Below, in pieces: positions 2,028 to 53,706 of a DNA stretch of 64,000 nt. Each line of letters opens with the position of its first letter. Position 1 is the stretch's first letter. Source of the stretch: Streptomyces sp. NBC_01335 (GTDB taxonomy: Bacteria > Actinomycetota > Actinomycetes > Streptomycetales > Streptomycetaceae). The notes beneath the pieces were generated by a model, which saw only the letters and a list, made by a program, of their open reading frames with translations, did not search any database and was not told where the DNA came from. Position numbers and translations under genes: made by a program. The stretch covers positions 2,170,001 through 2,234,000 of the forward strand of contig NZ_CP108370.1 in assembly GCF_035953295.1 (NCBI RefSeq), given 5' to 3'.

Positions 2028-3233
<1,206 letters not shown>

Positions 3234-4581: not shown

Positions 4582-4643
4582 GGCTGGCATCGTCAGGTGG
4601 GGGACACCACTCCCCCACGACCGGCTCACCACCGGTTTCGCCC
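4582..4643 (-). ncRNA. Hammerhead ribozyme A (open stem II layout)
   Basis: Read on the minus strand: GGCGAAAC (4642-4635), stem III ACCGG/CCGGU with a 7-base loop, GUC (4621-4619), stem I GUGGGGG/CCCCCAC around AGUGGUGU, CUGACGA (4596-4590), then UGCCAGCC. All hammerhead core positions are present: C3 U4 G5 A6 N7 G8 A9, G12 A13 A14 A15.1, U16.1 and C17. Predicted self-cleavage is between 4619 and 4618. Stem II is open and formed by GGC with a downstream GCC. It lies between two early genes. Confidence 0.9.
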
Positions 4644-4682
4644 GCGTCCGGCCCCCTCGGCTCTCACGAGGGGGCCGGACGC
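4644..4682 (-). terminator. Strong hairpin immediately upstream of hammerhead A
   Basis: A perfect 16-bp inverted repeat (arms 4644-4659 and 4667-4682) with a 7-base loop GCTCTCA on the plus strand. It sits between the stop at 4686 and hammerhead A. The innermost CTCG/CGAG and the loop are identical to the hairpin at 9798-9834, though the outer stems differ. No T-run follows, so it may be an actinobacterial-type terminator or an mRNA end protector rather than a classical terminator. Confidence 0.55.
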
Positions 4683-4685
4683 GCA

Positions 4686-4943
4686 TCAGGAACTCGTCAT
4701 GTAGCCGTCGCGGCATTCGATGTACGAGGTCTCGCCGATCTGAGCCCAGCAGTCCATGTGGTCGTCCACGTCGCCGAAGGGCTCACGCCCAAGAGCGCGC
4801 TGCTCGTCTTCGAACGAGATGGCAGGCGGGGCGACGGGCGCACTGGCGTGTCCGATCACGGAAGCGCCGAGTATGAGGAGTACCGCCCAGGCGAGCGACC
4901 ACGCGGTGACGGCTGCGATGAGCATGCGCTTGGAGATGTTCAT
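4686..4943 (-). CDS. Small membrane-anchored or secreted phage protein
   Basis: An 85-residue protein with a positively charged start (MNISKRM) and one hydrophobic segment (AWSLAWAVLLILGASVIG, residues about 14-31), followed by a soluble domain containing DHMDCWAQ and YIECRDGY, where the two Cys may form a disulphide. The layout suggests a signal peptide or membrane anchor with an external domain. No recognised family. Confidence 0.65.
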   Translation of the reverse strand: MNISKRMLIAAVTAWSLAWAVLLILGASVIGHASAPVAPPAISFEDEQRALGREPFGDVDDHMDCWAQIGETSYIECRDGYMTSS

Positions 4944-4954
4944 GGTGTTCCGTC

Positions 4955-5173
4955 TCAGTAGGCGTTCAGTACTTCGATGACCGAGGTGTCCGTGATCTCT
5001 TCGAAGATCAGCTCCTGGTCGGTCCAGTTGTGGTTCTCGTCCGCCCAGTCCCGGAGGCCCTCGTCGTCGCAGACCTCGCCGTCTTCGTCCAAGAACTCTT
5101 CGGGGACTTCGATGCTGATCTCGACCTCGGCCTGTGTGGTCCGCTCGACCGAGAACTTGACGGTCTTCTTCAC
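4955..5173 (-). CDS. Small acidic phage protein
   Basis: A 72-residue acidic protein (VERTTQAEVEISIEVPEEFL, DDEGLRDWADENHNWTDQEL). The start is GTG at 5171-5173, overlapping the upstream stop (GTGA). It resembles DNA-mimic or anti-restriction proteins only in being small and acidic, which is not enough for a functional call. Confidence 0.65.
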   Translation of the reverse strand: MKKTVKFSVERTTQAEVEISIEVPEEFLDEDGEVCDDEGLRDWADENHNWTDQELIFEEITDTSVIEVLNAY

Positions 5174-5523
5174 GCCGCGATCTCCTCGTCCTCGTCGTCG
5201 AGGCCGGCCGTGTCGAAGTCGGCCAGTACGAGCCGCTCGGCAGCGTCAGCGGTCGGGGCCTCCACGAAGCGCAGGAAGCGGTACAGCTCCCCGTTGGTGT
5301 AGACGGCGCTGCTCTCGTCGTGCCGGTGGCCTTCGAACACGGCGGCGATGAGGAGTTCATCGCTTCGGGTCTTGTGGAGGGCGGCCACGGTCCACTTCTT
5401 GCTGTCGGTCACAGCTCTCCCCAGTTGAATGTGCAGGCGGCAGGGGCCGCAGGTCAGGTCTTCGTCAAGCAGCTCGGGTACGCGCCCGCACCCGGTGCAC
5501 GGCTCGGTGTTGAGGGGGGTCAC
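5170..5523 (-). CDS. Hypothetical phage protein with N-terminal zinc-ribbon-like Cys pairs
   Basis: A 117-residue protein starting at GTG 5521-5523, overlapping the previous stop. CTGCGRVPELLDEDLTCGPC near the N-terminus has the spacing of a small zinc ribbon; the remainder has FLRFVEAPTADAAERLVLAD and an acidic end. Coupled by overlap on both sides. Function unknown. Confidence 0.65.
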   Translation of the reverse strand: MTPLNTEPCTGCGRVPELLDEDLTCGPCRLHIQLGRAVTDSKKWTVAALHKTRSDELLIAAVFEGHRHDESSAVYTNGELYRFLRFVEAPTADAAERLVLADFDTAGLDDEDEEIAA

Positions 5524-5942
5524 CGGCTCGCCTCCGCCGACGCGCGGCGGAGAACCGGCCGGTACCAGGGGCATTCGCTGTCCGACCATCCGGCGCTCTT
5601 GCCCCACTCGCGGCGGGCTTGTGCGGCACACCGTTCGCAGATGAACCGGTCCCCGAGAATGTGCCTCGTCCACGGGCCGCTTCGGGGCTGCTGGGGCGGG
5701 CACGCCTCGCAGGGGCCGCCACCGCGGATGTGCTGGAAGCACAGGGCGGTGCTGCCGTTCGGCGCGGTCGTCCACACGGCGGCGTGTCCGTGCTTCTCGG
5801 CCAGGTCGTACGCCAGGACGAACGCGTCCTCGTATCCGTAGTCGAGGAACTCTCCCCGGAGGGTCATGTGGCCGACGCAGTCGTGATCGTGGTGGTCAGC
5901 GTCGGTGTGCGTGCACTCGTACACGTCGTAGCGCCAGGTCAT
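5520..5942 (-). CDS. His/Cys-rich hypothetical phage protein
   Basis: A 140-residue protein with a His/Asp-rich start (ECTHTDADHHDHDCVGH) and later Cys pairs (CEACPP, CERCAAQ), so metal binding is plausible. The ATG at 5940-5942 overlaps the stop of the previous gene, and the end overlaps the next GTG. No recognised family. Confidence 0.65.
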   Translation of the reverse strand: MTWRYDVYECTHTDADHHDHDCVGHMTLRGEFLDYGYEDAFVLAYDLAEKHGHAAVWTTAPNGSTALCFQHIRGGGPCEACPPQQPRSGPWTRHILGDRFICERCAAQARREWGKSAGWSDSECPWYRPVLRRASAEASR

Positions 5943-6412
5943 TCGGAGATCCCCATCAGGTCGAGGAGTTCGTCAACGGTCGGGGTGGAGGCGGCGAGCG
6001 TGTCCTCCTGGATCAGTCGCCACAGTTCGGGTTCGTGGACAAGGCAGTCGGGCTTGCGGCACGGGCGGCCCAGACCGGCGATGAAATTGCGGTGTTCGTC
6101 CAGGCCCGCAGAGAGCCAGTCGTCACCTTCGAGGAACTCGGGCCGCTTCTCGGCCCACCGTTCGCGCACCGATTCGATGTCGCGGACCTCGTAGAACGGG
6201 CTGGCACCGTGTTGGCGGACCAGGTCGACCCACGAGGCTCGGACCCTGTCGTAGCTGCGGCGGGAGTAGTCGTATCCCGAAGCGGGATCGATGTCGTCCA
6301 TGTCGACTCCGGACTCAAGGCAGAGCGCTATTCGAGCGTCGGACATGGACGTAATCCGGTCAGGGCAACTGGAGTTGGCGAAGTGGAAGATCATGAAAGT
6401 GGCGCGGTGCAT
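5939..6412 (-). CDS. Hypothetical phage protein
   Basis: A 157-residue protein. The ATG at 6410-6412 is preceded by CTGAAAG. A later methionine (MSDARIALCLES, residue 23) is a possible alternative start. The C-terminal half is helical (LWRLIQEDTLAASTPTVDEL). A strong hairpin lies upstream at 6431-6460. Family unknown. Confidence 0.65.
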   Translation of the reverse strand: MHRATFMIFHFANSSCPDRITSMSDARIALCLESGVDMDDIDPASGYDYSRRSYDRVRASWVDLVRQHGASPFYEVRDIESVRERWAEKRPEFLEGDDWLSAGLDEHRNFIAGLGRPCRKPDCLVHEPELWRLIQEDTLAASTPTVDELLDLMGISE

Positions 6413-6430
6413 GTGCTGCTTTCAGGCAGG

Positions 6431-6460
6431 GGGCCGCCCCGCCCGGAGACGGGGCGGCCC
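6431..6460 (-). terminator. Intergenic hairpin between leftward genes
   Basis: An 11-bp perfect inverted repeat (GGGCCGCCCCG and CGGGGCGGCCC) with an 8-base loop, in the space between the stop at 6474 and the start at 6412. No U-tract. It lacks hammerhead core sequences. It may be a terminator or an mRNA stabilising structure. Confidence 0.45.
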
Positions 6461-6473
6461 GATGAAGAAGGAG

Positions 6474-6701
6474 TTAGAGAGCGTCGAAGGTGCCCGGTGG
6501 GAACCAGCCGACCATCAGCGCGCGACCGTCGCCGTCGATGTAGACGTGACGCTCTGCACCGTCGGGGTAGCGGAACCGACGCAGGTTCTCGCCCACTTCG
6601 CCGTCCCAGGCCGCTTCCCAGCCCGGATGGCGGAAGCAGACCCCGATGCGTATCCCGTCAGGCTCGCCGTTGTGAGTGATGAAGCCCGTAAGCGTGGTCA
6701 C
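6474..6701 (-). CDS. Small phage protein
   Basis: A 75-residue protein starting GTG at 6699-6701, overlapping the upstream stop (GTGA). It includes GFITHNGEPDGIRIGVCFRH and RHVYIDGDGRALMVGWFPPG, suggesting a small beta-rich fold. Translationally coupled to the DUF2786-like gene. Family unknown. Confidence 0.6.
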   Translation of the reverse strand: MTTLTGFITHNGEPDGIRIGVCFRHPGWEAAWDGEVGENLRRFRYPDGAERHVYIDGDGRALMVGWFPPGTFDAL

Positions 6702-7435
6702 GCCGAGACCGCCCGACGACGACCGGAGGTCACACGGGAGTCGCCGAGATCCGCACGCTGACCGGCGGCCTTGCCCTCCGACCAACCCGAGCCGGTGAGC
6801 CGACGCTTAGCGGCCATGCGCACCTTGGGATGCGCGGCCTTGAACTGTGCACGAATGGTGTCCTCGCGGCTGGAGAGAACCAGCTCGGCCGAGCGGCCCC
6901 CGAGTTCGCGGGTAGCCTGCGCTGCCGCGATTTCTTCGGATCGCGTCAGACGGTGGTAAACGGACTGGGAGAAGCCCGCCAGCCAGGACTTGCGGTAGGC
7001 GGTCGTGGACTCCCCCCACGCGGGGGCGCCCTGCTTCATGCCGTTGAACGCCTGGAGCAGAAGCGACGTGAACAGCATCTCGACGCGGTCGAGCGTCGAT
7101 TCGAAGGCGTGAACCTCAACGTTCTGGGCGTACTTGCCCGACTCCCAGTCGTAGACGCGCCAGCGGACGGTCTGTCCGCCGAGCGCCATGGTCACGTTGT
7201 TGAGGAGCTGCACGCGGTCGAGGAGGTACGAGCCCTTGAGAATGATGGTCCGGGTGGACGGCTTGTCCGTAGACGGGTCGGCCTCGGCGAGCATCGCCCG
7301 CTCGACGCCGTACTTCGACATCAGGGCGGCAGCCTTCGCGAAGTACGTCTCCGCTTCCTCCGGAGTCGCGGCCGGGTCTTCGGCCTTGGCGAGGATGGCG
7401 CGGATCTTCGCGAGGGTTGCCTCGTTGGCAGACAT
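6698..7435 (-). CDS. DUF2786-type phage protein
   Basis: A 245-residue protein whose N-terminus matches the DUF2786 pattern (KIRAILAKAEDPAATPEEAE then TYFAKAAALMSKYGVERAML), a helical module common in actinobacterial and phage proteins. The middle (RVEMLFTSLLLQAFNGMKQG) and the basic C-terminus resemble the associated DUF7168-like region. Biochemical role unknown. It is the first gene downstream of hammerhead B, 25 bases after it. Confidence 0.75.
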   Translation of the reverse strand: MSANEATLAKIRAILAKAEDPAATPEEAETYFAKAAALMSKYGVERAMLAEADPSTDKPSTRTIILKGSYLLDRVQLLNNVTMALGGQTVRWRVYDWESGKYAQNVEVHAFESTLDRVEMLFTSLLLQAFNGMKQGAPAWGESTTAYRKSWLAGFSQSVYHRLTRSEEIAAAQATRELGGRSAELVLSSREDTIRAQFKAAHPKVRMAAKRRLTGSGWSEGKAAGQRADLGDSRVTSGRRRAVSA

Positions 7436-7460
7436 GTACTTCTCTTTCTTTCACAAATGC

Positions 7461-7518
7461 GGCTGGCATCGTCAGACAGCGGGCACCACCCCGCCGCGAC
7501 GCCCGAAGGCGTTTCGCC
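7461..7518 (-). ncRNA. Hammerhead ribozyme B
   Basis: Minus strand: GGCGAAAC, stem III ACGCC/GGCGU closed by UUCG-type loop, GUC (7500-7498), stem I GCGGCGGG/CCCGCUGU with loop GUGGUG, CUGACGA (7475-7469), UGCCAGCC. Core is intact; predicted cut between 7498 and 7497. Only one base separates it from the stop codon of the gene at 7520-7957, and the next gene starts at 7435. Stem sequences differ from copy A while pairing is kept. Confidence 0.9.
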
Positions 7519-7519
7519 A

Positions 7520-7957
7520 TCAGCGGGAGCATGAACAGGAGTTCACGGGGAAGTACCGGTCGCGAATGTTCGTAAGGCGCACCTTGATTTCATTCATGTC
7601 CGCCGCTCGGGCTGCGTACCGGCTCACTTCGCTCTCTTCGTGGGCGTCATTCATCGCTGCCAGTGCTTCCGCCTCACCCCACACCGCAGCCGTAAGCATC
7701 GTGTCGCCGTACAGCGAGACAAGCTCGCTGACGTTTTCGGCACCAAAGAAGATCCAGTTCTTCAACGTCTCGATCTCTGACGCCCTCCGAGCAAGCCCAT
7801 CACCCCAGATACGCACGAGGCCAGAAGAGTGCTCCCTGAGCTTCCGAGCAGTTGCGAAGGTACTTTCACGCTCTTGCTCCAGGGCCAGGCACAAAGCCTT
7901 CCGGTAGTGCTTGAACAGTGACGCGCACTCCACCTTGAAACGGTCTTCGTCTTTCAT
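7520..7957 (-). CDS. Hypothetical helical phage protein
   Basis: A 145-residue mostly helical protein (FKVECASLFKHYRKALCLAL, FATARKLREHSSGLVRIWGD) ending VNSCSCSR. The chosen start is ATG at 7955-7957 behind AAGAGGCG; a longer reading to 8002 would run through hammerhead C. It is flanked by hammerheads C and B. Family unknown. Confidence 0.65.
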   Translation of the reverse strand: MKDEDRFKVECASLFKHYRKALCLALEQERESTFATARKLREHSSGLVRIWGDGLARRASEIETLKNWIFFGAENVSELVSLYGDTMLTAAVWGEAEALAAMNDAHEESEVSRYAARAADMNEIKVRLTNIRDRYFPVNSCSCSR

Positions 7958-7993
7958 GTCGCCTCTTAATCCTTCGAGTTCCGGCAATGCGTT

Positions 7994-8054
7994 GGCTGGC
8001 ATCGTCAGGCCACGGGAACCAAACCCGTGACGACCTCCTCTCAGAGGTTTCGCC
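7994..8054 (-). ncRNA. Hammerhead ribozyme C
   Basis: Minus strand: GGCGAAAC, stem III ACCUC/GAGGU with a 6-base loop, GUC (8034-8032), stem I GUCACGGG/CCCGUGGC with loop UUUGGUU, CUGACGA (8008-8002), UGCCAGCC. Core intact; predicted cut between 8032 and 8031. The loop and stem sequences are the most divergent of the five copies, but all stems still pair. It precedes the gene starting at 7957. Confidence 0.9.
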
Positions 8055-8136
8055 TTGTAGAAATCAGGTCATCTCTCTGCTAGTTGCAGGACCCCACCCG
8101 GCGGCCGGCCTGGGTGTAGGCATGCCGATCCGCCGG

Positions 8137-8592
8137 TCAGGCAGCCTCCGCCTCAACCAACTCGGCGTCCTCAACGTCGTCGTCTTCTCGGGCCAGGTTG
8201 TGAAGCTCAAGCCACATGTCGGCGGCCCCCTTCCGGCCGGTCTCGGCAAGCAGGTGGGCCAGCGCGGCGACCTCTTCAGCCCCGAGCTTTTCAGCCAAGG
8301 AGATAGCGAGCATCCGGTCATCAAACTGGTCACCGAACGCGGCTAGTGCACTGTTCAGCGCTCGACGCTCACGGACATCTGTTTCGATCCGCTCCAGCAG
8401 GACTATTCGCTGGGCGTTTTCCTGACCGAGCTGCGAATGCAAGTCGTGGATCTCGTCCAGTGCCTTATAGAAGCAATGCACGGCAGCGTGGGCGAGGTCG
8501 TCATGGAGCCTGCGGCTCTTGGCCCACGGGGTGCAATTAAGTGCCTTCACCAGAAGGTTCTTGGGCACGGTGATCCAATTACGAATGCGCAT
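8137..8592 (-). CDS. Hypothetical phage protein downstream of hammerhead D
   Basis: A 151-residue, mostly helical and C-terminally acidic protein (ALDEIHDLHSQLGQENAQRI, LAEKLGAEEVAALAHLLAET). The ATG at 8590-8592 lies behind GAAAGGTAGAG, a good ribosome site. It follows hammerhead D by 22 bases. The 82 bases after it (8055-8136) hold no clear feature. Family unknown. Confidence 0.65.
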   Translation of the reverse strand: MRIRNWITVPKNLLVKALNCTPWAKSRRLHDDLAHAAVHCFYKALDEIHDLHSQLGQENAQRIVLLERIETDVRERRALNSALAAFGDQFDDRMLAISLAEKLGAEEVAALAHLLAETGRKGAADMWLELHNLAREDDDVEDAELVEAEAA

Positions 8593-8614
8593 GTTCTCTA
8601 CCTTTCGCGATGAT

Positions 8615-8697
8615 GGCTGGCAAGGTCGGCAAGACGCCGACTCGTCAGGCCGGGGGAACCACCCCCCGACGACACCCCCGTGCGGGGATGTTTCGCC
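8615..8697 (-). ncRNA. Hammerhead ribozyme D with additional hairpin
   Basis: Minus strand: GGCGAAAC, 8-bp stem III ACAUCCCC/GGGGGUGU with loop GCAC, GUC (8673-8671), stem I GUCGGGGG/CCCCCGGC with loop GUGGUU, CUGACGA (8648-8642). Unlike copies A-C, a hairpin GUCGGC-GUCUU-GCCGAC is inserted before CUUGCCAGCC. Predicted cut between 8671 and 8670. A copy of the dispersed phage motif ends two bases upstream. Confidence 0.88.
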
Positions 8698-8698
8698 T

Positions 8699-8719
8699 GG
8701 TTCAACTAAGCCTTTCAGG
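8699..8719 (-). promoter_or_regulatory. Dispersed phage motif, copy 2
   Basis: Minus-strand copy CCTGAAAGGCTTAGTTGAAC plus C, overlapping the TGA stop of the gene at 8715-9371 and lying directly before hammerhead D. The GAAAGG part could act as a ribosome site and TTG as a start, but the short frame that follows runs through the ribozyme. Confidence 0.6.
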
Positions 8720-9371
8720 TCCGAGAAAGATCACGGTTGGTCGTGACCTCTTGGACGCCGATTCCGTGTGGATACATCACACCGCAGTCCCCTTTCCCGC
8801 ACTGGCAACCGTCCCGAAGGGTCTGCGCATGCATCTCGGCACACCCCTGGGCGTACCCCCATGCGGACCACAGTGATTCGAATACGGTTTCCGCATCACG
8901 CTCGTACCCCTCTCGCTGCGTTACTCGAACCCGTCCGGATGCCTCGGCCTTGACCTCCCAGAGGCCCAGGAGATCCGATACCTCGGTCCAGACACGCACT
9001 TCGTGCGCAGGTTCGCACTCACCCTCGAACGAGCATTCCGACCCGTCGCAATAACCGGTGAAACAGTGGTTCGACTTCGCCGGGTCGCAGGATTCCCACT
9101 CCTCACGCGGGCACCCTTCGCAGTACCGCCGACCGACGACCCCCAGCCCGCAGCAGTCACAGTTGTGATCACCCCGGACAATCACCTCGGATTCGTCTTC
9201 GAGCAGCTCCCACCCCTTGGGCACGAACAGCTCAACGTCGTCCGGCTCCCCAGAAAGGTATTCCTGGATGTACGTCGTCTGAGTTGCCCCCGGGATGCCG
9301 GGGTACGGCTCAGCAACGATCAGCATCAGGTTGTACGCCGCCTCTGCCGGAGGGACGATCTTCGCGGACAT
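8715..9371 (-). CDS. Cys-rich phage protein downstream of hammerhead E
   Basis: A 218-residue protein with a soluble N-terminal region and a dense Cys array in the middle (CDCCGLGVVGRRYCEGCPRE, CFTGYCDGSEC, EGECEP) and near the end (CQCGKGDCG), suggesting several metal sites. ATG at 9369-9371. No recognised family. Its stop codon lies in motif copy 2. Confidence 0.7.
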   Translation of the reverse strand: MSAKIVPPAEAAYNLMLIVAEPYPGIPGATQTTYIQEYLSGEPDDVELFVPKGWELLEDESEVIVRGDHNCDCCGLGVVGRRYCEGCPREEWESCDPAKSNHCFTGYCDGSECSFEGECEPAHEVRVWTEVSDLLGLWEVKAEASGRVRVTQREGYERDAETVFESLWSAWGYAQGCAEMHAQTLRDGCQCGKGDCGVMYPHGIGVQEVTTNRDLSRT

Positions 9372-9395
9372 GTGACCTCTTCTTTCGTGTTCGTT

Positions 9396-9476
9396 GGCTG
9401 GCAACGTCGACACATCGCCGACTCGTCAGGCAGCAGGCACCACCCCGCCACGACGCCCGACCTCAGGCGTTTCGCC
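9396..9476 (-). ncRNA. Hammerhead ribozyme E with additional hairpin
   Basis: Minus strand: GGCGAAAC, stem III ACGCC/GGCGU with an 8-base loop, GUC (9454-9452), stem I GUGGCGGG/CCUGCUGC with loop GUGGUG, CUGACGA (9429-9423), then a hairpin GUCGGC-GAUGU-GUCGAC, GUUGCCAGCC. Predicted cut between 9452 and 9451. The added hairpin is homologous to that in copy D. The gene at 9371 starts 24 bases after it. An 8-bp inverted repeat (GGGACAGG/CCTGTCCC, about 9488-9518) lies upstream. Confidence 0.88.
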
Positions 9477-9525
9477 ATGCGGGAGGGACAGGCCGGCCGC
9501 GGACAGACCTGTCCCCCAGTCCCCG

Positions 9526-9783
9526 CTAAGAGGCGGGGCGGAATCCGTTCGTCGGCACGAGACCGAACCCCGCGCGGCGCCAGAGGCTGGCCGTCAGGAA
9601 CTCGATCTCGTCGGCGGGCAGCGAGCACATGCGGCACCACCGCTTGAACTGGCCTGGGAGTGGCGCGGGTTGGGCGACCTCGATCACCTCTCCGCACCGT
9701 CCGATCGGAGCGAACTCCGTGACGCGGTCGAGGGTGTGCAGAACACCACCGGGTCGACCAACCTTGAATCCAACCTGGGACAT
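9526..9783 (-). CDS. Small phage protein
   Basis: An 85-residue protein (MSQVGFKVGRPGGVLHTLDR). The start is taken as ATG 9781-9783 because GGAGGTG lies 5 bases before it; an ATG at 9795 would add four residues. It contains CGEVIEVAQPAPLPGQFKRW and CRMCSLPADE, with a CxxC. It follows motif copy 3 and a large hairpin. Family unknown. Confidence 0.65.
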   Translation of the reverse strand: MSQVGFKVGRPGGVLHTLDRVTEFAPIGRCGEVIEVAQPAPLPGQFKRWCRMCSLPADEIEFLTASLWRRAGFGLVPTNGFRPAS

Positions 9784-9797
9784 CAGCACCTCCATGC

Positions 9798-9834
9798 CTT
9801 CCTGCCCTCTCGGCTCTCACGAGAGGGCAGGAAG
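9798..9834 (-). terminator. Strong hairpin between leftward genes
   Basis: A perfect 15-bp inverted repeat (arms 9798-9812 and 9820-9834) with loop GCTCTCA on the plus strand. It lies between the stop at 9854 and the start at 9783, directly after motif copy 3. Loop and closing CTCG/CGAG match the hairpin at 4644-4682. No T-run. Confidence 0.55.
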
Positions 9835-9854
9835 GTTCAAGTAAGCCTTTCGGC
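9834..9854 (-). promoter_or_regulatory. Dispersed phage motif, copy 3
   Basis: Minus-strand copy with core CCGAAAGGCTTACTTGAACC, overlapping the last base of the upstream gene's TAG and leading straight into a 15-bp hairpin. Confidence 0.6.
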
Positions 9855-10351
9855 TAGCGAAGAAGCTCACCCTGGGCCAGGAGAGCCGTGACATCACTCT
9901 GGAAGCTGGCGAAACTCTCCTCGATCCGTTCGCGAAGCCTGCTCTGCGCCTCCGCCTTGCCCTGGAAGACGTCGACTACCTCAAGGAGGTCCGCCTCACG
10001 CCGATCACGAAGTTCACGCGTCTCCCGAAGGCTGTCCTTCAGGAGCGCCAAGTCGCGTCGTGCGTCGTCGAGTTCGTCCCCGTACTTCTGGGTAAGGTCC
10101 CCCTGCCACTCAAGGTTGACCCCGAGGACATGGTTCGCCTCCTTGAGACCCTCGATCTCCAACATCGCAATCAACGACGCCTCGGAGTGAGCAGCGCGCT
10201 CCGCCCGCAGCTCCGCAGTCGTCGCATCCAACCGACGCTGCGTCTGAAACAGGATGCCGGACAGATACGTAAGCTGCTCGGCCAAGTCATAGTCCACGAC
10301 ATCCGTCGCCTTCTTCAGGCTGACACCGAACTCAACCACCGTGCTGGACAT
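9854..10351 (-). CDS. Coiled-coil phage protein, first gene of the leftward operon
   Basis: A 165-residue, highly charged helical protein (LDATTAELRAERAAHSEASL, DARRDLALLKDSLRETRELR, LRERIEESFASFQSDVTALL) predicted as a long coiled coil. ATG at 10349-10351. It is the gene nearest the long intergenic region, so it is probably the first gene of the leftward early transcript. Function unknown. Confidence 0.65.
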   Translation of the reverse strand: MSSTVVEFGVSLKKATDVVDYDLAEQLTYLSGILFQTQRRLDATTAELRAERAAHSEASLIAMLEIEGLKEANHVLGVNLEWQGDLTQKYGDELDDARRDLALLKDSLRETRELRDRREADLLEVVDVFQGKAEAQSRLRERIEESFASFQSDVTALLAQGELLR

Positions 10352-10953
10352 GTGTCCCCTCTCAGATAGGCCGGGTACTAACGCCGGCCTGCTGATACAC
10401 CCCACCTCTTGATGGAGCGCTGGCACCCCACCGACCGAGGCCGGTGAGGTCTCAGCGCACCACCAGGCCGAAGCCTGGCGGGCGCTACACGTTTGGTATG
10501 TAGGCAATGTGTCGGGTACGGAGTTCTGACGCAGTCGCGTCCCTCTCGCACCTTCGCGTTTCTCGATCGCAGCCCGGCCCTTGCCTCAGCAGGCGTACAG
10601 GGCCGGTGACACGGCGCTTCCGCGCTCCAGTCCGCTGCGTAAATTTCGCGTCCACTGTTGAGTTCTCAAGGAACTGGCACTGCCTTTCTGTACCGCCCCT
10701 GCGGGACGGCCTCGGTCCGGGCGCCCCGACCCAACTGCCCGGTCGGACCGACCTTTCGCGGGTCGGCTCGCTCGCAGCACCTAGGCCCCGCTTTCGCAGC
10801 AGCCTGCCTTGAGTCCTGCGACAGCTCGCTTCGCAGGGTCGGCCCCCGAAGCCCTCGGGGTAGGGCACCCGATGCCCGGATGCTGGCGTGAAGGTCATCC
10901 GCCTGGCCTCTCGGCCCTGCGGTGGTTCCGACCCTAGCGGATCTTCGCCGTTT

Positions 10954-10974
10954 GGTTCAAGTTCGCCTTTCGGC
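10954..10974 (-). promoter_or_regulatory. Dispersed phage motif, copy 4
   Basis: Minus-strand copy CCGAAAGGCGAACTTGAACC in the non-coding control region, closest of the three tandem copies to the leftward operon. Confidence 0.6.
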
Positions 10975-11055
10975 TTCGAGTGAAGCGGCCTTCCGTGACC
11001 CTTGCGAGCCCCGACCCTTCGCTTCGGTCCAGACCGTATCAGGTCCGGGCCATTC

Positions 11056-11076
11056 GGTTCAAGTTCACCTTTCGGC
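11056..11076 (-). promoter_or_regulatory. Dispersed phage motif, copy 5
   Basis: Minus-strand copy CCGAAAGGTGAACTTGAACC, 102 bases from copy 4. Confidence 0.6.
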
Positions 11077-11153
11077 TTCGTTCTCCGCTGCACTCCGGCC
11101 CGTTCAGGCTTGAGTTTTGCGGTGAGTCCCAACCGTAGGGGCCGGTCCTCGTT

Positions 11154-11174
11154 GGTGCAAGTTGGCCTTTCGGC
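11154..11174 (-). promoter_or_regulatory. Dispersed phage motif, copy 6
   Basis: Minus-strand copy CCGAAAGGCCAACTTGCACC, 98 bases from copy 5. Confidence 0.55.
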
Positions 11175-11977
11175 TTACCCGCAGCGCCCCCGCTCCGGTC
11201 ATTCGCTGGCCGCCCGGTTCCCGCCTCCATGGCTTCGTGTCTCGGGCCGACCGCTGCGGTGTCCGTCGCGGTGACAGGCCAAACATTGGCTTACTTGAAC
11301 CAGCGATGCAAGCCTCGTGACCGGGATGCCCGAATAGTCTTCCGCATTGTCCGGATTCGCTCCGGCTCTCGCTGCCCGGTATGCCCGAAGGGTGCGCAGT
11401 CGCACGCCTTCCGGCCCGTCGCCCTCCCCTGCCCTGCCTGCCCGCAGCACGCGCCCATAGCGCGCGGACCTTACACCAGCCATCCGCCCGGCGAACCACC
11501 GCAGGCGCACAACCCAGCACACGGGGGGTGGGGGGTGACCCCCGGCACGTGCACGCGCCGACCGCTGAGTCTTAGCCGCTCGGATTTTGCCACGGTTTCA
11601 GGGTCGTCCGGAGAAAGACGCATCGCCCAACCAATGCTCCGCAGGGTGTAGTTGGCTCCTCAGGCAGCGCTCAGGCGTGGCAGAATGTGCGGCGAAGTGC
11701 TTACACCTAACGGCTGGCGACCGGTGCGTTCTACACCCGAGGTACGCCTCACCTACCCGCACCGGCGGTTCGTGAATTCCGGGTGCGGCAGCAAGTCACT
11801 GGGGGGCAGGCCAGCTCTCCGGCCTTGATGCTGCACGTTGCCCTTGCTATCGGTCCCTGGCCTGTCCCGCGCGCACCGGCGCCAACCGGAAGCGGGGTTT
11901 CTCAGCCACCCGAACCCGGTCACCGCCAGGCTTGGTTCCGACGAAAGGATTCTTGCGATGGCCAGCAGCATCGATCC

Positions 11978-12193
11978 GTGAGCCGCAGACTGCCGATCGC
12001 TCTGAGTGCGCTTGCCGCCACCTCAGCTTCGGTCGCAGTCAGCCCCTGGATCGCCGTCGCGGCGATCAGTATGCCTTTGATCGTGTTCTTCGGCATCTTC
12101 ATGCCGGCGGTCTGGTCCAAGAGGCCAGCGCGACGCCGCGACGCTCGCCTTCTTGCTGAACGCATCCTGCGGATGCTAGAGAGGGGGCGCTGA
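11978..12193 (+). CDS. Small two-segment membrane protein
   Basis: A 71-residue protein with two hydrophobic segments (LPIALSALAATSASVAVS and WIAVAAISMPLIVFFGIFMP) and a basic C-terminal tail (SKRPARRRDARLLAER). The start is inferred as GTG 11978-11980. A seven-codon frame MASSIDP with the ribosome site GAAAGG precedes it and ends in a GTGA overlap, suggesting translational coupling from a leader peptide. Reminiscent of small Spd-type or holin-like proteins; role unknown. Confidence 0.55.
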   Translation: MSRRLPIALSALAATSASVAVSPWIAVAAISMPLIVFFGIFMPAVWSKRPARRRDARLLAERILRMLERGR

Positions 12194-12231
12194 CGATCCC
12201 CTCGCGAGCCACACGCGCGCCACCGATTCCT

Positions 12232-12268
12232 GCGAGCCCCGTTGCCGTCCCTCGGCGACGGGGCTCGC
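12232..12268. terminator. Bidirectional terminator-like hairpin between converging genes
   Basis: An inverted repeat with arms GCGAGCCCCGT and ACGGGGCTCGC plus an inner GCCG/CGGC, in the space between rightward gene 11978-12193 and leftward gene 12281-13090. Position between convergent genes supports a terminator. Confidence 0.6.
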
Positions 12269-12280
12269 GCGTTCAGCGGG

Positions 12281-13090
12281 TCACGCAGCTTGGACTTCGC
12301 CGAGGTACCGGTACCCAGATCGGACGGAGCAACCGAGCCGCTCCGCCAGCGTCGGACCGGTCACCGTGGCGCCCTCGGCCTGCATGGTCGCCACGGTGTT
12401 CTTGACGACGGTCAGCGGGACGGCCTTCCTGGCAGAGCGCTGCCGCCGGGGTGTCTGCTCCTCCTTCTCCACCGCTGCCAGTTCGCCAGTCAGCTCGTCC
12501 GCCATCTCATCCGCTTCGGCGGTCAGCTCGTCCGCGATGGCGGACAGCTCTTCGTAGTCGTTTCGGATGCCGTGGCACTTGGACACGAGCTGTCGGCCTG
12601 CCAGGTCGAGGGCCTCGGCGACTTCGCCAGCGAGGTACGCCGACGCTTCTTCCAGGTCGCGCAGCCGCTCGGCTGCGGTGACCTCGGCGGCCGGCATGGC
12701 TGCCATGTGCAGCATGTGTGCCACGACGAGCGGCGGCACGGAGGACACGGCGGCAACGAGGACGGCGGAGGTTGCCATGTATCCCCGGTCGATGAGGTGT
12801 GCCACGACTTGGGCCGCCAGTGCCAGGCCGAGGGCGGCCCCGGCTCCGATCGTGGCAGTGACACGGCCGGGAGCCTTGGCACGTCGGCGAACGTCGGAGA
12901 TGACGGCGGCGCAGGCGGCGTAGGCGGAGACGCACACCGGCATGAGCCAGGTGATCCAGCCGTGCCAGCCCGCGAGCTGTGCCATGCGGATTTCGCCGGG
13001 GACGGACATGACCAGTGCGGCGACGAGAACGAGGGGCCTGCCAGCGGTGAAGACACTGCGGGCGTACCAGGGCATGTGCATCGAGGACAT
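12281..13090 (-). CDS. DUF2637-type membrane protein with C-terminal HTH
   Basis: A 269-residue protein with four predicted membrane segments in the first half (PLVLVAALVMSVPG, TWLMPVCVSAYAACAAVI, IGAGAALGLALAAQVVAHLI, TSAVLVAAVSSVPPLVVAHM), a long acidic helical region, and a winged-HTH-like end (GPTLAERLGCSVRSGYRYLG). This is the layout of DUF2637 proteins found on Streptomyces plasmids, integrative elements and phages. ATG at 13088-13090 behind GAAAGG. Its cellular role is unproven. Confidence 0.7.
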   Translation of the reverse strand: MSSMHMPWYARSVFTAGRPLVLVAALVMSVPGEIRMAQLAGWHGWITWLMPVCVSAYAACAAVISDVRRRAKAPGRVTATIGAGAALGLALAAQVVAHLIDRGYMATSAVLVAAVSSVPPLVVAHMLHMAAMPAAEVTAAERLRDLEEASAYLAGEVAEALDLAGRQLVSKCHGIRNDYEELSAIADELTAEADEMADELTGELAAVEKEEQTPRRQRSARKAVPLTVVKNTVATMQAEGATVTGPTLAERLGCSVRSGYRYLGEVQAA

Positions 13091-13122
13091 GGGTGTGCCT
13101 TTCAAGGTGTCGCAGTGGCAGG

Positions 13123-14073
13123 TCAGGCGGCGAGGGCGGCGCGGACTCGGGCCGCGCCTGCGGCGTACGGGTCCGCGTCGGGGAAGTCCTCGACCTCTGC
13201 CTCTGCCAGGGGCGCGACAGTGCCAGCGAGGAAGGCAGCTGCGTTGTCCAGTTCGAAGCGGCAGGTGGCACAGACCGTGCCGGTGCGGCCCATCGGGAAG
13301 GGGGCGTCACAGACCTCGCACCGGTGCCTGGTGTCCGGCTGGCGCTCGGCCTTCGGCTGTGGCTTCGCGGGCTTCTGATTCTTGAGCCGGTAGCTGATCA
13401 GCGCGTAGGCGGAGTCAACGTGTTCGGGCAGCCGGGCCGTCAGGACGCTGACCATCTTCAGCGGGCTGTGCCCTTCGGTGAGCCACTCGGCGGCGATCGG
13501 GGCCAGGCGCAGGACTTCGGCGGCGCTGAGCGAGAGGCGGCGGTCATCTGCCCCGAGGGTCGAGAGCACCTTGGCTGCCTTCCCGACCTCGGCGTCAGCC
13601 GAGGGGCGGTTCTTGTCGCTGGAGCTATCTCCCTCCTCCTCGGTGCTGGCCTCGGTCGGCTCCTGGCCGCCGTTCGTCGGCTCGGGCGCAGGGAGGAGGT
13701 TCTTTCCCTGGTTCTTTACTCCCTTGGGAGAGCCGCCGACAGACCGAGTAGCCGGTTCACCGACCGCCGGGAAGCGGTCAGTCGGGAGATCAGAGATGTG
13801 GGTCTCGGTGCACCAGAGGCCCGAGTCGGGGCTCTGGAAGCGGTCGCGGCGGAGGTATCCAGCGTCTTCGAGCTGCTGGAACGCCTTGGCGACTGCGCGC
13901 CGGCCTTCTTCCACGCGGTCCGTCACGGACTCGACGGTCACCTTCGTGCCGTCCGGCAGGGACAGCAGCGTGACGTGCAGGCCGCGGGCGGCCAGGGACA
14001 GCTTCTTGTTCCGGGCTGCCTCGTTGGGGACCACCACGAAGGCACGTTCGTGCCGGTTACGATGCACTCGCAT
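13123..14073 (-). CDS. Replication-initiator-like winged-helix protein
   Basis: A 316-residue protein. The N-terminus (FVVVPNEAARNKKLSLAARG then LHVTLLSLPDGTKVTVESVT) has a winged-helix pattern of phage and plasmid replication or regulatory proteins, with a Pro/Glu/Ser-rich linker, a helical domain and a C-terminal zinc-finger-like CEVCDAPFPMGRTGTVCATC. Start ATG 14071-14073. An in-frame TTG in motif copy 7 (14166) would extend it by 31 residues but with poor composition. It shares an operon with the DUF2637 gene. DNA binding is likely; the replication role is inferred. Confidence 0.6.
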   Translation of the reverse strand: MRVHRNRHERAFVVVPNEAARNKKLSLAARGLHVTLLSLPDGTKVTVESVTDRVEEGRRAVAKAFQQLEDAGYLRRDRFQSPDSGLWCTETHISDLPTDRFPAVGEPATRSVGGSPKGVKNQGKNLLPAPEPTNGGQEPTEASTEEEGDSSSDKNRPSADAEVGKAAKVLSTLGADDRRLSLSAAEVLRLAPIAAEWLTEGHSPLKMVSVLTARLPEHVDSAYALISYRLKNQKPAKPQPKAERQPDTRHRCEVCDAPFPMGRTGTVCATCRFELDNAAAFLAGTVAPLAEAEVEDFPDADPYAAGAARVRAALAA

Positions 14074-14159
14074 CTGGGAGCTACCTCTCCTGGGTGTAGG
14101 CCCTGGTCCGGTGTTAGCGCACCTGGCCGGGGCCGCCTGCGTTGCAGGCACACCCGGAA

Positions 14160-14180
14160 GGTACAAGTTAGCCTTTCGGT
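14160..14180 (-). promoter_or_regulatory. Dispersed phage motif, copy 7
   Basis: Minus-strand copy CCGAAAGGCTAACTTGTACC, 87 bases before the start at 14073, followed by a GCCTGC/GCAGGC hairpin. The next 290 bases to 14474 contain an A/T-rich stretch (TATATATAAGTAG at about 14334) that could hold divergent promoters but no clear gene. Confidence 0.6.
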
Positions 14181-14474
14181 TTGTCTAGCCCGTTCGGGCT
14201 TCCCTCCAGCGCGGCCCGCCAGGGCCGCCCTGTCGAGCACACCAGCCGTTCGCCGCCGCCAGGCTCCGGCTACCGCCGTCGCCTGTGGTCCAGATCACTC
14301 CCTTGCCCTTTCCGAAAGCGGCCTCCTCATTCCCTATATATAAGTAGAGGCAGTAAGGCTTAAGTAATTGTTCCCTGGCGGGGGCATAAAGGCGAAGCTC
14401 CTATTGCGCTTGGCGGCCCTAAAGGGCCGCTCAGAGGGAAGCCTCAAAAGGCTTACCTATGGCGAGGAGGAATC

Positions 14475-14789
14475 ATTCCTTCCTGGAGTTCCTCCGATAG
14501 ACGCTCGCGACTTCCCAAGAACTGGCCTCAGATCAGAGCGCGAATTTTGCGCCGCGACGGTCATCGGTGCACTGAGCGAAACGACTACGGCGCGCGATGC
14601 GCTGAACCTGCCACAGATGTGGACCATATACTTCCCGGCGACGACCACCGAGAATCCAACCTTCAGTCACTCTGCGGGTGGCATCACCGGGTTAAATCCT
14701 CCCAAGAGGGAGCCGCGGCCCAGGCCGCAATTCGTCGGCGCCACAACCGGCGATTCCGCAGGACCGAGGAACACCCCGGCCTGCTGTAA
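14475..14789 (+). CDS. HNH endonuclease, apparent ATT start
   Basis: A 104-residue HNH nuclease of the kind often encoded near phage terminases and needed for packaging-linked DNA cleavage in many siphophages. Visible are SSSDRRSRLPKNWPQIRARI, RRDGHRCTERN, DVDHILPGDDH, ESNLQSLCGWHH and a basic end. The family usually begins MxWSxSxRRxRLPxNW. Here that position is ATT (14475-14477), 4 bases after AGGAGG, and no ATG, GTG or TTG lies in frame before TTG 14547, which would remove conserved residues. Confidence 0.75.
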   Translation: MPSWSSSDRRSRLPKNWPQIRARILRRDGHRCTERNDYGARCAEPATDVDHILPGDDHRESNLQSLCGWHHRVKSSQEGAAAQAAIRRRHNRRFRRTEEHPGLL

Positions 14790-14887
14790 AGGCGTGAAGC
14801 TCCGGTTCGCTGACCCATTGAGCGTAAGCCGGCCCCCGAGGATCACTCTCCCTCAGGGGCCCACTGACTTTGTGCGAGGTGCTGCCG

Positions 14888-15130
14888 ATGACTGGTTGGT
14901 CCTGGACGTGGATTGCCTGGCTGGCGGCCTTCGCCGCGATTGAAGGAGCCGCACTTGCCCGAGATGCACGAGGCGACACCCTCAGCGAACACGTCTGGAA
15001 ATGGTTCGGGATCGGCCGGCACGATGAGCCCCGACCCGAAGTCACCGGAGCCGTGCGCCTCCGGCGTTTCGCCCTGCTCGCGTTTCTCGCGTGGCTGTCC
15101 GCGCATTTCCTGACTGGCGGCGCGTTCTAA
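14888..15130 (+). CDS. Small membrane protein
   Basis: An 80-residue protein with an N-terminal hydrophobic segment (MTGWSWTWIAWLAAFAAIEG), a charged middle and a second hydrophobic segment near the end (FALLAFLAWLSAHFLTGGAF). ATG at 14888-14890; GCGAGGTG lies upstream. It lies between the HNH nuclease and terminase genes. A membrane role is likely; holin activity is unproven. Confidence 0.6.
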   Translation: MTGWSWTWIAWLAAFAAIEGAALARDARGDTLSEHVWKWFGIGRHDEPRPEVTGAVRLRRFALLAFLAWLSAHFLTGGAF

Positions 15131-35976: not shown

Positions 35977-36432
35977 ATGCCCGCACCATCGAAGATCGTG
36001 GACGAGGAGGAGGTGAGGAAGTGGTTCGCTCAAGGAAAGACGTACAAGTGGATGGTCGAGCAGTACAAAGAGCTGTACCAACGAGAAACATCCATCTCGA
36101 TGTGGGCGAACTATCGCCGCCGCCATCACCTTCAGCGCCGGATCGTGCGGGACGATGACCTTATCCCGTGGCACGTATTGGAGCGGCACCGCTACAAGTA
36201 CGATTTGATCATGCTGCGGCTGGAGGCTCGTCTTCGCGAGGGCGTGGAGCTTACCGCCCGGGATTCACAGCGTCTCGAATCGTGGAAGGCGTCACTGGCC
36301 GAAGAAGGGGCCGTGGTTCACTACGACCCCGAGACGGCTGACGGCTTTTTCTGGGTGCCCGGCGAGGAGGCAGATACGGATATCATCCGGATGCCAGCCG
36401 AGAAGACGACGAAGCGCCTCCGCGCAGACTGA
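35977..36432 (+). CDS. DNA-binding protein, possible regulator
   Basis: A 151-residue protein. EEVRKWFAQGKTYKWMVEQY and ETSISMWANYRRRHHLQRRI resemble a helix-turn-helix with a recognition helix rich in Arg/His. Later parts (LIPWHVLERHRYKYDLIMLR, RLEARLREGVELTARDSQRL) are helical. The ATG at 35977 has GAGGAAGATC upstream. It is monocistronic, divergent from 35839, and followed by a strong terminator, as expected for a regulatory gene. Repressor role is a guess. Confidence 0.6.
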   Translation: MPAPSKIVDEEEVRKWFAQGKTYKWMVEQYKELYQRETSISMWANYRRRHHLQRRIVRDDDLIPWHVLERHRYKYDLIMLRLEARLREGVELTARDSQRLESWKASLAEEGAVVHYDPETADGFFWVPGEEADTDIIRMPAEKTTKRLRAD

Positions 36433-36652: not shown

Positions 36653-36961
36653 GTGGATCTTGTAACCGAGGTGACGCGAGTTTTTGATTGGCCCGGTGGC
36701 CCGTGGCGCACGTTCGAAGTGCACCACCTTTCAAGGCGCGGCGTGTCGCTCTACGCGAATGCCGACCGTTACGAATTCCATGTGACGTTCCCCGTCGACC
36801 ACACAGAGGCGGACCTCCAGTGGGCGCTGCTGGAGGCGGCGGCATTGGACTTGGAGTTGATCCCAGAAGTGGACGACGAAGTCGAAATTCTCGGCGACGG
36901 GGATTACCTGCGCATCCATCTGATTCCCAGCAACAACCAGGAGGCCCCGTGTCACCTCTGA
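36653..36961 (+). CDS. Hypothetical phage protein, first gene of the rightward replication operon
   Basis: A 102-residue protein starting GTG behind GGAGG. It has RVFDWPGGPWRTFEVHHLSR and an acidic helical end (LEAAALDLELIPEVDDEVEI). It overlaps the next gene by 13 bases. No recognised family. Confidence 0.65.
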   Translation: MDLVTEVTRVFDWPGGPWRTFEVHHLSRRGVSLYANADRYEFHVTFPVDHTEADLQWALLEAAALDLELIPEVDDEVEILGDGDYLRIHLIPSNNQEAPCHL

Positions 36962-40335: not shown

Positions 40336-40478
40336 TGCTGCTCGAAGAGGCCGAGGAGCAAGCCCGGCTGCGGCGCGAACTGGACGATCTGTTCGTTGAG
40401 TTCACCGAACCGCAGGGCCTCGCCGATCTCGGCTACGACGTAGGCCGGCGGCTGTTCGTGGGGGCGCGTGTCGCGTGA
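40335..40478 (+). CDS. Very small phage protein
   Basis: A 47-residue protein: MLLEEAEEQARLRRELDDLF, VEFTEPQG and GYDVGRRLFVGARVA. ATG shares one base with the previous stop, and its own stop shares one base with the next ATG. Supported by this packing; function unknown. Confidence 0.55.
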   Translation: MLLEEAEEQARLRRELDDLFVEFTEPQGLADLGYDVGRRLFVGARVA

Positions 40479-40618
40479 TGGACCCCGATGACGCGCTTGC
40501 GGTCGACGCGTTCCTCGATTGCCTGAACGACCCGAACTTCGACGCCCATCTCCTGATGGCTCTGGAGGAGCTGTACGGGGTGCCCATGAGCGACCTGGAT
40601 CGGTGGATGCTTCCGTGA
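40478..40618 (+). CDS. Very small phage protein
   Basis: A 46-residue acidic protein: MDPDDALAVDAFLDCLNDPN, FDAHLLMALEELYGVPMSDL. One-base overlap with the previous gene, four-base overlap with the primase gene. Function unknown. Confidence 0.55.
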   Translation: MDPDDALAVDAFLDCLNDPNFDAHLLMALEELYGVPMSDLDRWMLP

Positions 40619-53296: not shown

Positions 53297-53706
53297 GACA
53301 GACGAGTCCAGGCTATACGCCGGGTTCTGTCGCCCGGTCGCCTCGCGGCGGCCGGGGAGACGGCCATCCATCTAGGACCGGCATTGCTGCCGGCCTCCTG
53401 CGGTCTACCCGCGAACTCGGGCGGGCCGCCCTCGAACGTTCGCGCAGGGCCGTCTTGCGACGGTCCTTCTTGACCTTGCTCCGGGTGGGGTTTACCTAGC
53501 CGCCTGAGTCACCTCAGGCGCTGGTGGTCTCTTACACCACCGTTTCACCCTTACCCGGGACCTGGGTCCCGGGCGGTCTGTTTTCTGTGGCACTGTCCCG
53601 CGAGTCACCTCGGGTGGCCGTTAGCCACCACCCTGCCCTGTGGAGCCCGGACGTTCCTCGGGGAGATCCGGAGATCCCCACGCGGCCGTCCGCCCGGCTC
53701 GTCTGC
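53297..53706 (-). ncRNA. rnpB: RNase P RNA, bacterial class A
   Basis: The catalytic RNA of RNase P, which matures tRNA 5' ends. P1 pairs CAGACGAG (5', 53705-53698) with CUCGUCUG (3', 53305-53298). Conserved core parts are visible on the minus strand: GAGGAACGUCCGGGCUCCAC, ACAGUGCCACAGAAAACAGACC in two pieces (ACAGUGCCACAGAAAACAGA), GGUAAGGGUGAAACGGUGGU, GUAAGAGACCACC, CUAGAUGGAUGG and CAGAACCCGGCGUAUAGCC. Length of about 410 bases fits Streptomyces. Confidence 0.95.

Follow-up and report, generated by a model that had tools for sequence, protein, structure and literature searches.

A 64,000-nucleotide (nt) window of the Streptomyces sp. NBC_01335 genome (NZ_CP108370.1, forward-strand positions 2,170,001 to 2,234,000), which is the whole stretch of DNA analysed here, holds a tailed prophage with five minus-strand elements that we identify from their sequence as type II hammerhead ribozymes, predicted to cut after GUC. 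We propose, with a probability of roughly 0.8, that such hammerheads cut the early phage transcript between genes into messages with hairpin ends, and that gene-by-gene cutting is itself a selected trait, which R4-type phages would obtain with 8-12 hammerheads and their sister phages with a minihelix, tRNA-like in form, as a possible target of the host's RNase P.

All five elements matched the RF02276 (Hammerhead_II) covariance model, which has a gathering score of 37 bits, and they were the sole RF02276 matches reported at E≤0.001 in the whole 8.36 Mb genome, where 150 of 10,899 first-look candidates were scored. A pattern made of sequence only (GCGAAAC..GTC..CTGANGA) was found five times in the window against 0.06 expected, and none of 100 shuffles reached five. 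A first-pass annotation had already placed five minus-strand elements with these motifs at these positions and had read in them a hammerhead order with closed stems I and III and an open stem II, a reading that the RF02276 matches confirm as type II. The order of blocks is the same in all copies: GGC (5' strand of stem II), GAAA, a closed stem III, GUC, a closed stem I, CUGACGA, GCC and a tail AGCC. GAAA, a NUH triplet and CUGAnGA come in the order G-S-C, and stems I and III are closed, in 5/5 copies. Stem II lies within 0-2 nt of CUGAnGA in three of the five, since a single U separates CUGACGA from GCC in copies 3, 4 and 5, while in copies 1 and 2 GCC comes only after a 17-nt hairpin and 3 further nt. 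The pseudoknot between loop I and the tail has six pairs, one of them a wobble, in copy 3. The ribozymes are listed here with their counterparts in G394 (IMGVR_UViG_2939431169_000002), a sister prophage that was found by searching for the pattern of the inserted hairpin.

9396..9476, minus strand: hammerhead 1 (type II), RF02276 36.4 bits; G394 counterpart at 36131 with the same insert
Parts of hammerhead 1, minus strand: stem II 5' strand 9474-9476; GAAA and stem III 9452-9473; predicted cut between 9452 and 9451; stem I 9430-9451; CUGACGA 9423-9429
3' parts of hammerhead 1, minus strand: inserted hairpin 9406-9422; stem II 3' strand GCC 9400-9402; AGCC 9396-9399
8615..8697, minus strand: hammerhead 2 (type II), RF02276 48.9 bits; G394 counterpart at 36903 without insert
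Parts of hammerhead 2, minus strand: predicted cut 8671/8670; stem I 8649-8670; CUGACGA 8642-8648; insert 8625-8641; GCC 8619-8621; AGCC 8615-8618
7994..8054, minus strand: hammerhead 3 (type II), RF02276 43.5 bits; predicted cut 8032/8031; stem I 8009-8031; CUGACGA 8002-8008; G394 counterpart at 37510
7461..7518, minus strand: hammerhead 4 (type II), RF02276 39.5 bits; predicted cut 7498/7497; stem I 7476-7497; CUGACGA 7469-7475; G394 counterpart at 38098
4582..4642, minus strand: hammerhead 5 (type II), RF02276 46.3 bits; predicted cut 4619/4618; stem I 4597-4618; CUGACGA 4590-4596; G394 Rfam match 40478-40545

Each ribozyme sits between the stop codon of one gene and the start codon of the next on the same strand, with start codons chosen by hand, and all five gaps of at least 80 nt from gene 9526-9795 down to the deoxynucleoside monophosphate (dNMP) kinase gene hold one, as read by hand and not by a gene finder. 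This interleaving with early prophage genes, which had been noticed at first sight of the sequence, recurs in G394 and, on a larger scale, in free phages. According to our model, the hammerheads would act during transcription, cleaving the early prophage RNA after GUC in these intergenic gaps, so that a polycistronic early message would become messages of one to a few genes. Because the type II order puts the cut between two closed hairpins, both products would end in a hairpin, whereas types I and III close one side only. The upstream message would then end in the stem III hairpin with a 2',3'-cyclic phosphate, and the downstream message would open with the stem I hairpin, carrying a 5'-OH and lacking any single-stranded overhang; its start codon would lie 62-80 nt from the cut (for copies 1 to 5 in turn, 80, 78, 74, 62 and 74 nt, again to hand-chosen start codons). 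Both hairpin ends should resist exonucleases and 5'-monophosphate-dependent decay, and cutting would be constitutive, turning the early transcript into separately stable messages.

G394 has exactly five RF02276 matches in a block that is largely syntenic with that of the window, with matched neighbour genes 35-75% identical; the window genes between ribozymes 3 and 4 and just after ribozyme 5 have no G394 match at 1e-5. The five ribozymes were compared with their counterparts along the paired length common to both, a comparison in which pairing is kept by construction: 44 of the 71 stem pairs are the same, 10 differ on one side and 17 on both. The first-pass annotation had already called the differing but still paired stems of the window copies covariation, which the two-sided changes back, and G394 offers a better test of it than the differences among the window copies. 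The possibility of a mobile repeat was rejected, given these compensatory stem differences and the corresponding positions in both prophages. Spread by plasmids was also considered, and no plasmid match was found at E≤1e-5.

Much larger arrays were found in Arquatrovirinae phages, of which we took 21 records chosen to represent ten of the eleven named genera (all except Celiavirus) and counted RF02276 matches at E≤0.01 over whole records. Thirteen of them carry 8-12 hammerheads each: Issmi 11, Paedore 12, Salutena 12, Animus 11, Bowden 11, Alvy 11, R4 9, ELB20 10, Sentinel 10, Amethyst 8, Nishikigoi 8, Janus 11 and Thestral 11. All 135 matches (122 over the gathering score and 13 below it) lie on the early-gene strand. 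There were none in Vanseggelen, phiHau3, Lika, Izzy, Lannister, Celeste, Joe and Yosif, nor in the outgroups phiC31 and Faust. A branch with 100/100 support separates the 13 hammerhead phages from the others in a tree of dNMP kinases from 18 phages; on the ThyX tree, the hammerhead distribution needs two changes. Beyond these phages, RF02276 was found in 19 of 394 Streptomycetaceae genomes, five of which have four to seven matches, including the window's own (strict filters, any context), and in 9 of 295 genomes of a genus sample.

The arrays follow the gaps between genes. Over five annotated phages, a hammerhead was found in 42 of the 47 gaps of at least 80 nt, in 4/7 of those of 50-79 nt and in 1/85 of those below 50 nt; 51 of the 56 hammerheads are centred in an annotated gap, and the other five overlap stretches annotated as coding. 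From the end of the Rfam match to the next start codon, the median distance in these phages is 18 nt, and most distances are 15-22 nt. The R4 open reading frames gp60.1, gp67.1 and gp75.1 each fully enclose a hammerhead and are probably mis-annotated genes. A hammerhead-free gap of 255-282 nt precedes homologous genes in three phages (L149 5299-5559, L150 5392-5646, L153 5134-5415) and is possibly a promoter or regulatory region. In an all-Rfam scan of 16 early regions, 12 of them from array phages other than R4, no other hammerhead family was over its threshold. This matters for the proposal that cutting destabilises messages, shutting genes off or setting polarity rather than protecting the products. 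Cut ends can expose RNA to decay, and Streptomyces has 5'-3' exonuclease activity; however, the Rfam-passing hammerheads of the scanned regions are all of the type that would close both new ends with hairpins, and most start codons lie at the short distance just given, which makes destabilisation an unlikely explanation.

Could these elements instead be structured spacers, attenuators or DNA sites that resemble hammerheads without being functional ribozymes? Cleavage is only predicted here, and one of the five window copies and 13 of the 135 phage matches are under the Rfam threshold. To look at pairing from another side, we collected sense-strand cores in the 13 phages by sequence only, which gave 135 cores, a set distinct from the 135 RF02276 matches. 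Both stems have at least four pairs in 113 of these cores against 1.3% with shuffled arms, the 22 others being kept as failures (GUU or GUA cores, mismatched stems, or a second CUGAnGA downstream of a ribozyme already counted), while the antisense strand of the same phages gave 0 cores. Chance origin was rejected on this shuffled-arm test and on the shuffle test of the core pattern in the window. Among 98 distinct combinations of loop and tail, loop I-tail pairing reached 4.44 against 4.14 when tails were redealt 500 times (standard deviation 0.07, maximum 4.36), with swaps such as GUGACG/CGUCAC, UGGGCA/UGCCCA and GGGGU/ACCCC. A constant core, compensated stems and pseudoknot covariation are unexpected of spacers or DNA sites, and we therefore regard this explanation as very improbable.

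Two window copies have an additional helix beside the core.

9406..9422, minus strand: inserted 6-base-pair (bp) hairpin of copy 1, GUCGGC-GAUGU-GUCGAC, between CUGACGA and stem II; similar insert in G394
8625..8641, minus strand: inserted hairpin of copy 2, GUCGGC-GUCUU-GCCGAC; absent from the corresponding G394 ribozyme

Both hairpins fall inside the intervals 8615-8697 and 9396-9476 that had been given at first, although the greater length of these two copies had gone unremarked. A third insert, GUCGGU-GAUGU-GCCGAC, is found in the first ribozyme of G394, so that the first ribozyme has an insert in both prophages and the second in the window only. Comparing the three, pairing is kept and the changes are one-sided only. 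In the minimum-energy fold, the copy 1 insert forms its hairpin inside a closed junction, and the fold of copy 2 is mixed. Searches for the insert 13-30 nt after CUGAnGA, using two sequence forms, returned 22 and 20 IMG/VR stretches, among which only that of G394 (L198) has it; with the first form only, 392 Streptomyces genomes gave the window's two inserts and two matches that do not read as hammerheads. None was found in the other parsed hammerhead arrays, where two further hairpin flags lie in ordinary tails. Such an insert tests how much the hammerhead fold tolerates beside its core.

This helix might also be a switch, if cutting were regulated by a protein, a ligand or a folding choice and if the GUC of the hairpin served as an alternative stem II partner for GGC. 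All three insert copies indeed offer GGC two partners, this GUC (3 bp, one of them G-U) and the downstream GCC, and corresponding ribozymes can differ in whether they have the insert. But only three copies in two prophages have it among the parsed loci, and no conserved aptamer-like loop was seen among the parsed stem I and III loops, so that regulation by switching seems doubtful and constitutive cutting remains our preferred reading.

The phages Lika and Joe, which are without hammerheads, have early-operon gaps of similar size, and most of the large ones hold one repeated element. In this minihelix of 43 nt, an acceptor-like stem of 5 bp is followed by the linker A-N-N-GGCA-N-N-C-A (11 nt), a stem of 6 bp closed by the tRNA T-loop UUCGAGY, the acceptor 3' strand and ACU.

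L181 (Lika) 9812-15028, minus strand: minihelices
L182 (Joe) 10055-14338, minus strand: minihelices
L180 and L183, minus strand: minihelices
L155, plus strand: minihelices; 4-8 strict-geometry copies in each of these fetched regions

Scanned with a covariance model, the eight hammerhead-free Arquatrovirinae each gave 6-10 minihelices, while the 13 hammerhead phages, phiC31, Faust, G394 and the window gave none. Presence is thus mutually exclusive among the 21 phages, 13 having hammerheads only and eight minihelices only. The alignment of 34 copies was limited to the exact 5/6/11 geometry, dropping a Joe copy with an extra base and an odd T-arm of Vanseggelen. For 32 distinct copies from five phages, 416 of 416 pair cells are standard, of which the part due to both stems follows from a scan that required their pairing, and 87 two-sided changes were counted against a shuffled mean of 24. 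Two unselected pairs, one within the linker and one between linker and T-loop, were found by looking through all linker columns; each is formed in 32/32 copies, with 8 and 11 two-sided changes. The element lacks an anticodon arm and a full cloverleaf (tested with RF00005) and has the 11-nt linker in their place. ARAGORN found no tRNA gene in seven loci, five of them with minihelices, and no Rfam family was over its gathering score in the four minihelix regions scanned, the only tRNA-like echo being one copy, in a 5.1-kb stretch of Joe, that reached 26.2 bits with mascRNA-menRNA (RF01684) against a gathering score of 42.5.

Minihelices lie in 7/10 (Lika) and 8/9 (Joe) of the gaps of at least 80 nt and, for both phages together, in 0/3 of those of 50-79 nt and 0/27 of those below 50 nt. 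From its T-loop, its acceptor/T-stem stack and the GG in its linker, the minihelix could be an RNase P substrate. The presence of an element with such hallmarks at comparable gaps of sister phages is our strongest comparative argument that cutting itself is selected. No earlier description was found in Rfam, ARAGORN, the Lika and Joe annotation or term checks of the accessible text of PMC5311408 and PMC11536984, which included no literature search aimed at tRNA-like elements, and the minihelix may be new in kind. The exact pattern occurs in 67 IMG/VR stretches, of which 59 contain a strict-geometry copy and 35 contain four or more, these stretches being partly the same viruses as named phages such as Lika, Joe and Yosif. 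Among 392 Streptomyces genomes, four minihelices were found at E≤1e-4, all in one genome, G057 (strict filters); they are variants of 44-45 nt within about 5 kb (L328-L331).

We give even odds to a wider claim, namely that two unrelated and interchangeable cutting devices punctuate R4-type early operons, with hammerheads (8-12, or five in the window prophage) in some and a new-class 43-nt minihelix (6-10), cut by host RNase P, in others, that the downstream message would start structured either way, and that hammerheads tolerate a whole helix beside the catalytic A9. The chemistry of the two devices bears on another proposal, that the host RtcB joins the segments between ribozymes into circular gene-length messages. 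A 5'-OH and a 2',3'-cyclic phosphate are substrates of RtcB, and the host genome encodes this enzyme (PF01139, 4544950-4546056, L244), but none of the 14 records searched does (13 array phages and G394). An RNase P cut of the minihelix would leave a 5'-phosphate and a 3'-OH, which are not RtcB ends. Moreover, for bacterial clusters, neither circular nor spliced forms were detected by Perreault et al. (PMC3088659). We consider circular messages quite improbable and linear, hairpin-ended messages the better reading.

Several points weigh against that reading. Cutting is a prediction for every copy described here, and in the earlier study cleavage was not seen for 4 of 18 consensus hammerheads (PMC3088659). 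The covariance-model search suggested at the outset turned out well for four window elements, which exceed the RF02276 gathering score, and gave five matches in G394, while the match at 9413-9477 (copy 1) falls marginally short with 36.4 against 37. Single-strand folding energies are weak as evidence (z from -0.43 to -3.35 for seven sequences, two from G394), the minimum-energy nested fold of copies 2-4 differs from a clean hammerhead, and the inserts of copies 1 and 2 could impair the core. Both Rfam and our own parser select for pairing, so that pair counts within phages are no independent test. In the five annotated phages, five gaps of at least 80 nt have no Rfam match, one of which matches by motif. 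Placement of minihelices in gaps was checked for Lika and Joe only. A comparison of 29 Lika/Joe genes with homologues in four hammerhead phages does favour the reading, with an element upstream in both clades for 6, in neither for 18, in the minihelix clade only for 2 and in the hammerhead clade only for 3 (one-sided p 0.004), but its gene rows (homologues shared by Lika and Joe), like the 21 phages, are related and not independent. Lastly, three IMG/VR loci, two of them distinct, hold several minihelices and one parsed hammerhead on the same strand, below the Rfam threshold; the exclusion is therefore strict in the 21 named phages but not everywhere, and these loci are possibly intermediates.

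L314 859-4656: mixed locus
L288 7443-10463: mixed locus
L307 2500-4449: mixed locus, reads like L288

As for the prophage itself, its terminase, portal, protease, major head, tape measure and tail genes are on the plus strand of the window, while a minus-strand block holds the dNMP kinase and a DUF2786 protein; we call this block early because its gene order is common to the named phages. Its closest named relatives are Streptomyces phages in 27/27 records, the first seven fetched being Arquatrovirinae. Used as a probe, the DUF2786 protein found one relative in IMG/VR and one in genomes, and two RF02276 matches were counted in a Streptomyces prophage whose DUF2786 gene is 64% identical.

9526..9795, minus strand: early gene upstream of hammerhead 1, 89 amino acids (aa), no family found; 71% identical match in G394
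8715..9371, minus strand: early gene between hammerheads 1 and 2, 218 aa, no family found; 75% identical match in G394
8137..8592, minus strand: early gene between hammerheads 2 and 3, 151 aa, phrog_1178, unknown function; 35% identical match in G394
7520..7957, minus strand: early gene between hammerheads 3 and 4, 145 aa, no family found; no G394 match
6698..7435, minus strand: DUF2786 protein gene downstream of hammerhead 4, 245 aa, phrog_421, PF10979 4.8e-13; matches in 217 phage records
4206..4544, minus strand: early gene downstream of hammerhead 5, 112 aa, no family found; no G394 match
2028..3233, minus strand: dNMP kinase-containing gene of the same strand block, 401 aa, phrog_139, PF21448

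Strong perfect hairpins were also seen at 9795-9837, where one fills a 58-nt hammerhead-free gap, and at 4646-4680, directly before ribozyme 5; the two share the loop GTGAGAGCC, and a strong hairpin likewise precedes ribozyme 5 of G394. An RNase P RNA gene (RF00010) at 53299-53701 of the window is a host gene, located past the prophage structural genes.

Hammerhead clusters in prophages and the processing of transcripts by them are already known. Perreault et al. described natural type II hammerheads with a loop I-tail pseudoknot and multiple hammerheads flanking prophage genes in 2011, and proposed that clustered prophage hammerheads process long phage transcripts into gene-length messages (PMC3088659), so that the processing of early mRNA, which the first-pass annotation had offered as a new idea, had been in print since then. 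Bacterial hammerheads in tandem were shown there to yield the expected products in vitro and, for an A. tumefaciens set, in E. coli as well (PMC3088659). Those prophage clusters resemble the present ones in being of type II, in having the pseudoknot and in flanking single genes or short blocks with several ribozymes; however, the largest named in the sections consulted has three, compared with five here and 8-12 in free phages, where they occupy most large gaps of one operon. A term search did not find "Streptomyces" in the main text of that paper. The HHphage ribozyme of haloviruses HF1/HF2 likewise precedes an early phage gene, at a distance of 13 nt, and one transcript end maps to within 3 nt of the cut, but it is a single ribozyme with a variant core that has an insertion near C3 (PMC3088659). 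Non-circularly permuted hammerheads reported by Eckert et al. in 2023 have the same core and natural structural variation; according to these authors, alignments show at most one or two nt inserted between CUGAnGA and adjacent stems, unlike the two window copies, which have a 17-nt hairpin plus 3 nt there in an unchanged type II order (PMC10085705). That work also states that the biological reason for associations between ribozymes and genes is still unknown (PMC10085705). Cultivated phages with dense intergenic ribozymes, which are replaced in sister phages by another candidate cutting signal, provide a built-in comparison for the question of why hammerheads are kept, and R4 and Joe are both recorded on S. 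coelicolor. No report of Arquatrovirinae hammerheads was found in the literature searched, as judged by titles and the starts of abstracts, nor did we find in print the 17-nt insert hairpin of three copies (two in the window, one in G394) or, with no literature search aimed at it, the 43-nt minihelix. What is added here is an unusual density, occurrence in several genera, a structural insert and a replacing counterpart. This counterpart has its own likenesses. The mascRNA/menRNA elements (RF01684) are tRNA-like 3'-end elements of MALAT1/MEN beta that are cut by RNase P; like the minihelix, they have a T-loop and an acceptor-like stem and no anticodon arm, whereas the minihelix is 43 nt long, phage-borne and present in 6-10 copies per genome, with an 11-nt linker that has its own covarying pairs. 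In mitochondrial polycistrons, tRNA punctuation uses structured RNAs between genes to mark the cuts of a long transcript; the minihelices, as we read them, would be similar cut marks between genes, except that they are not tRNAs, and the hammerhead clade would need no enzyme at all.

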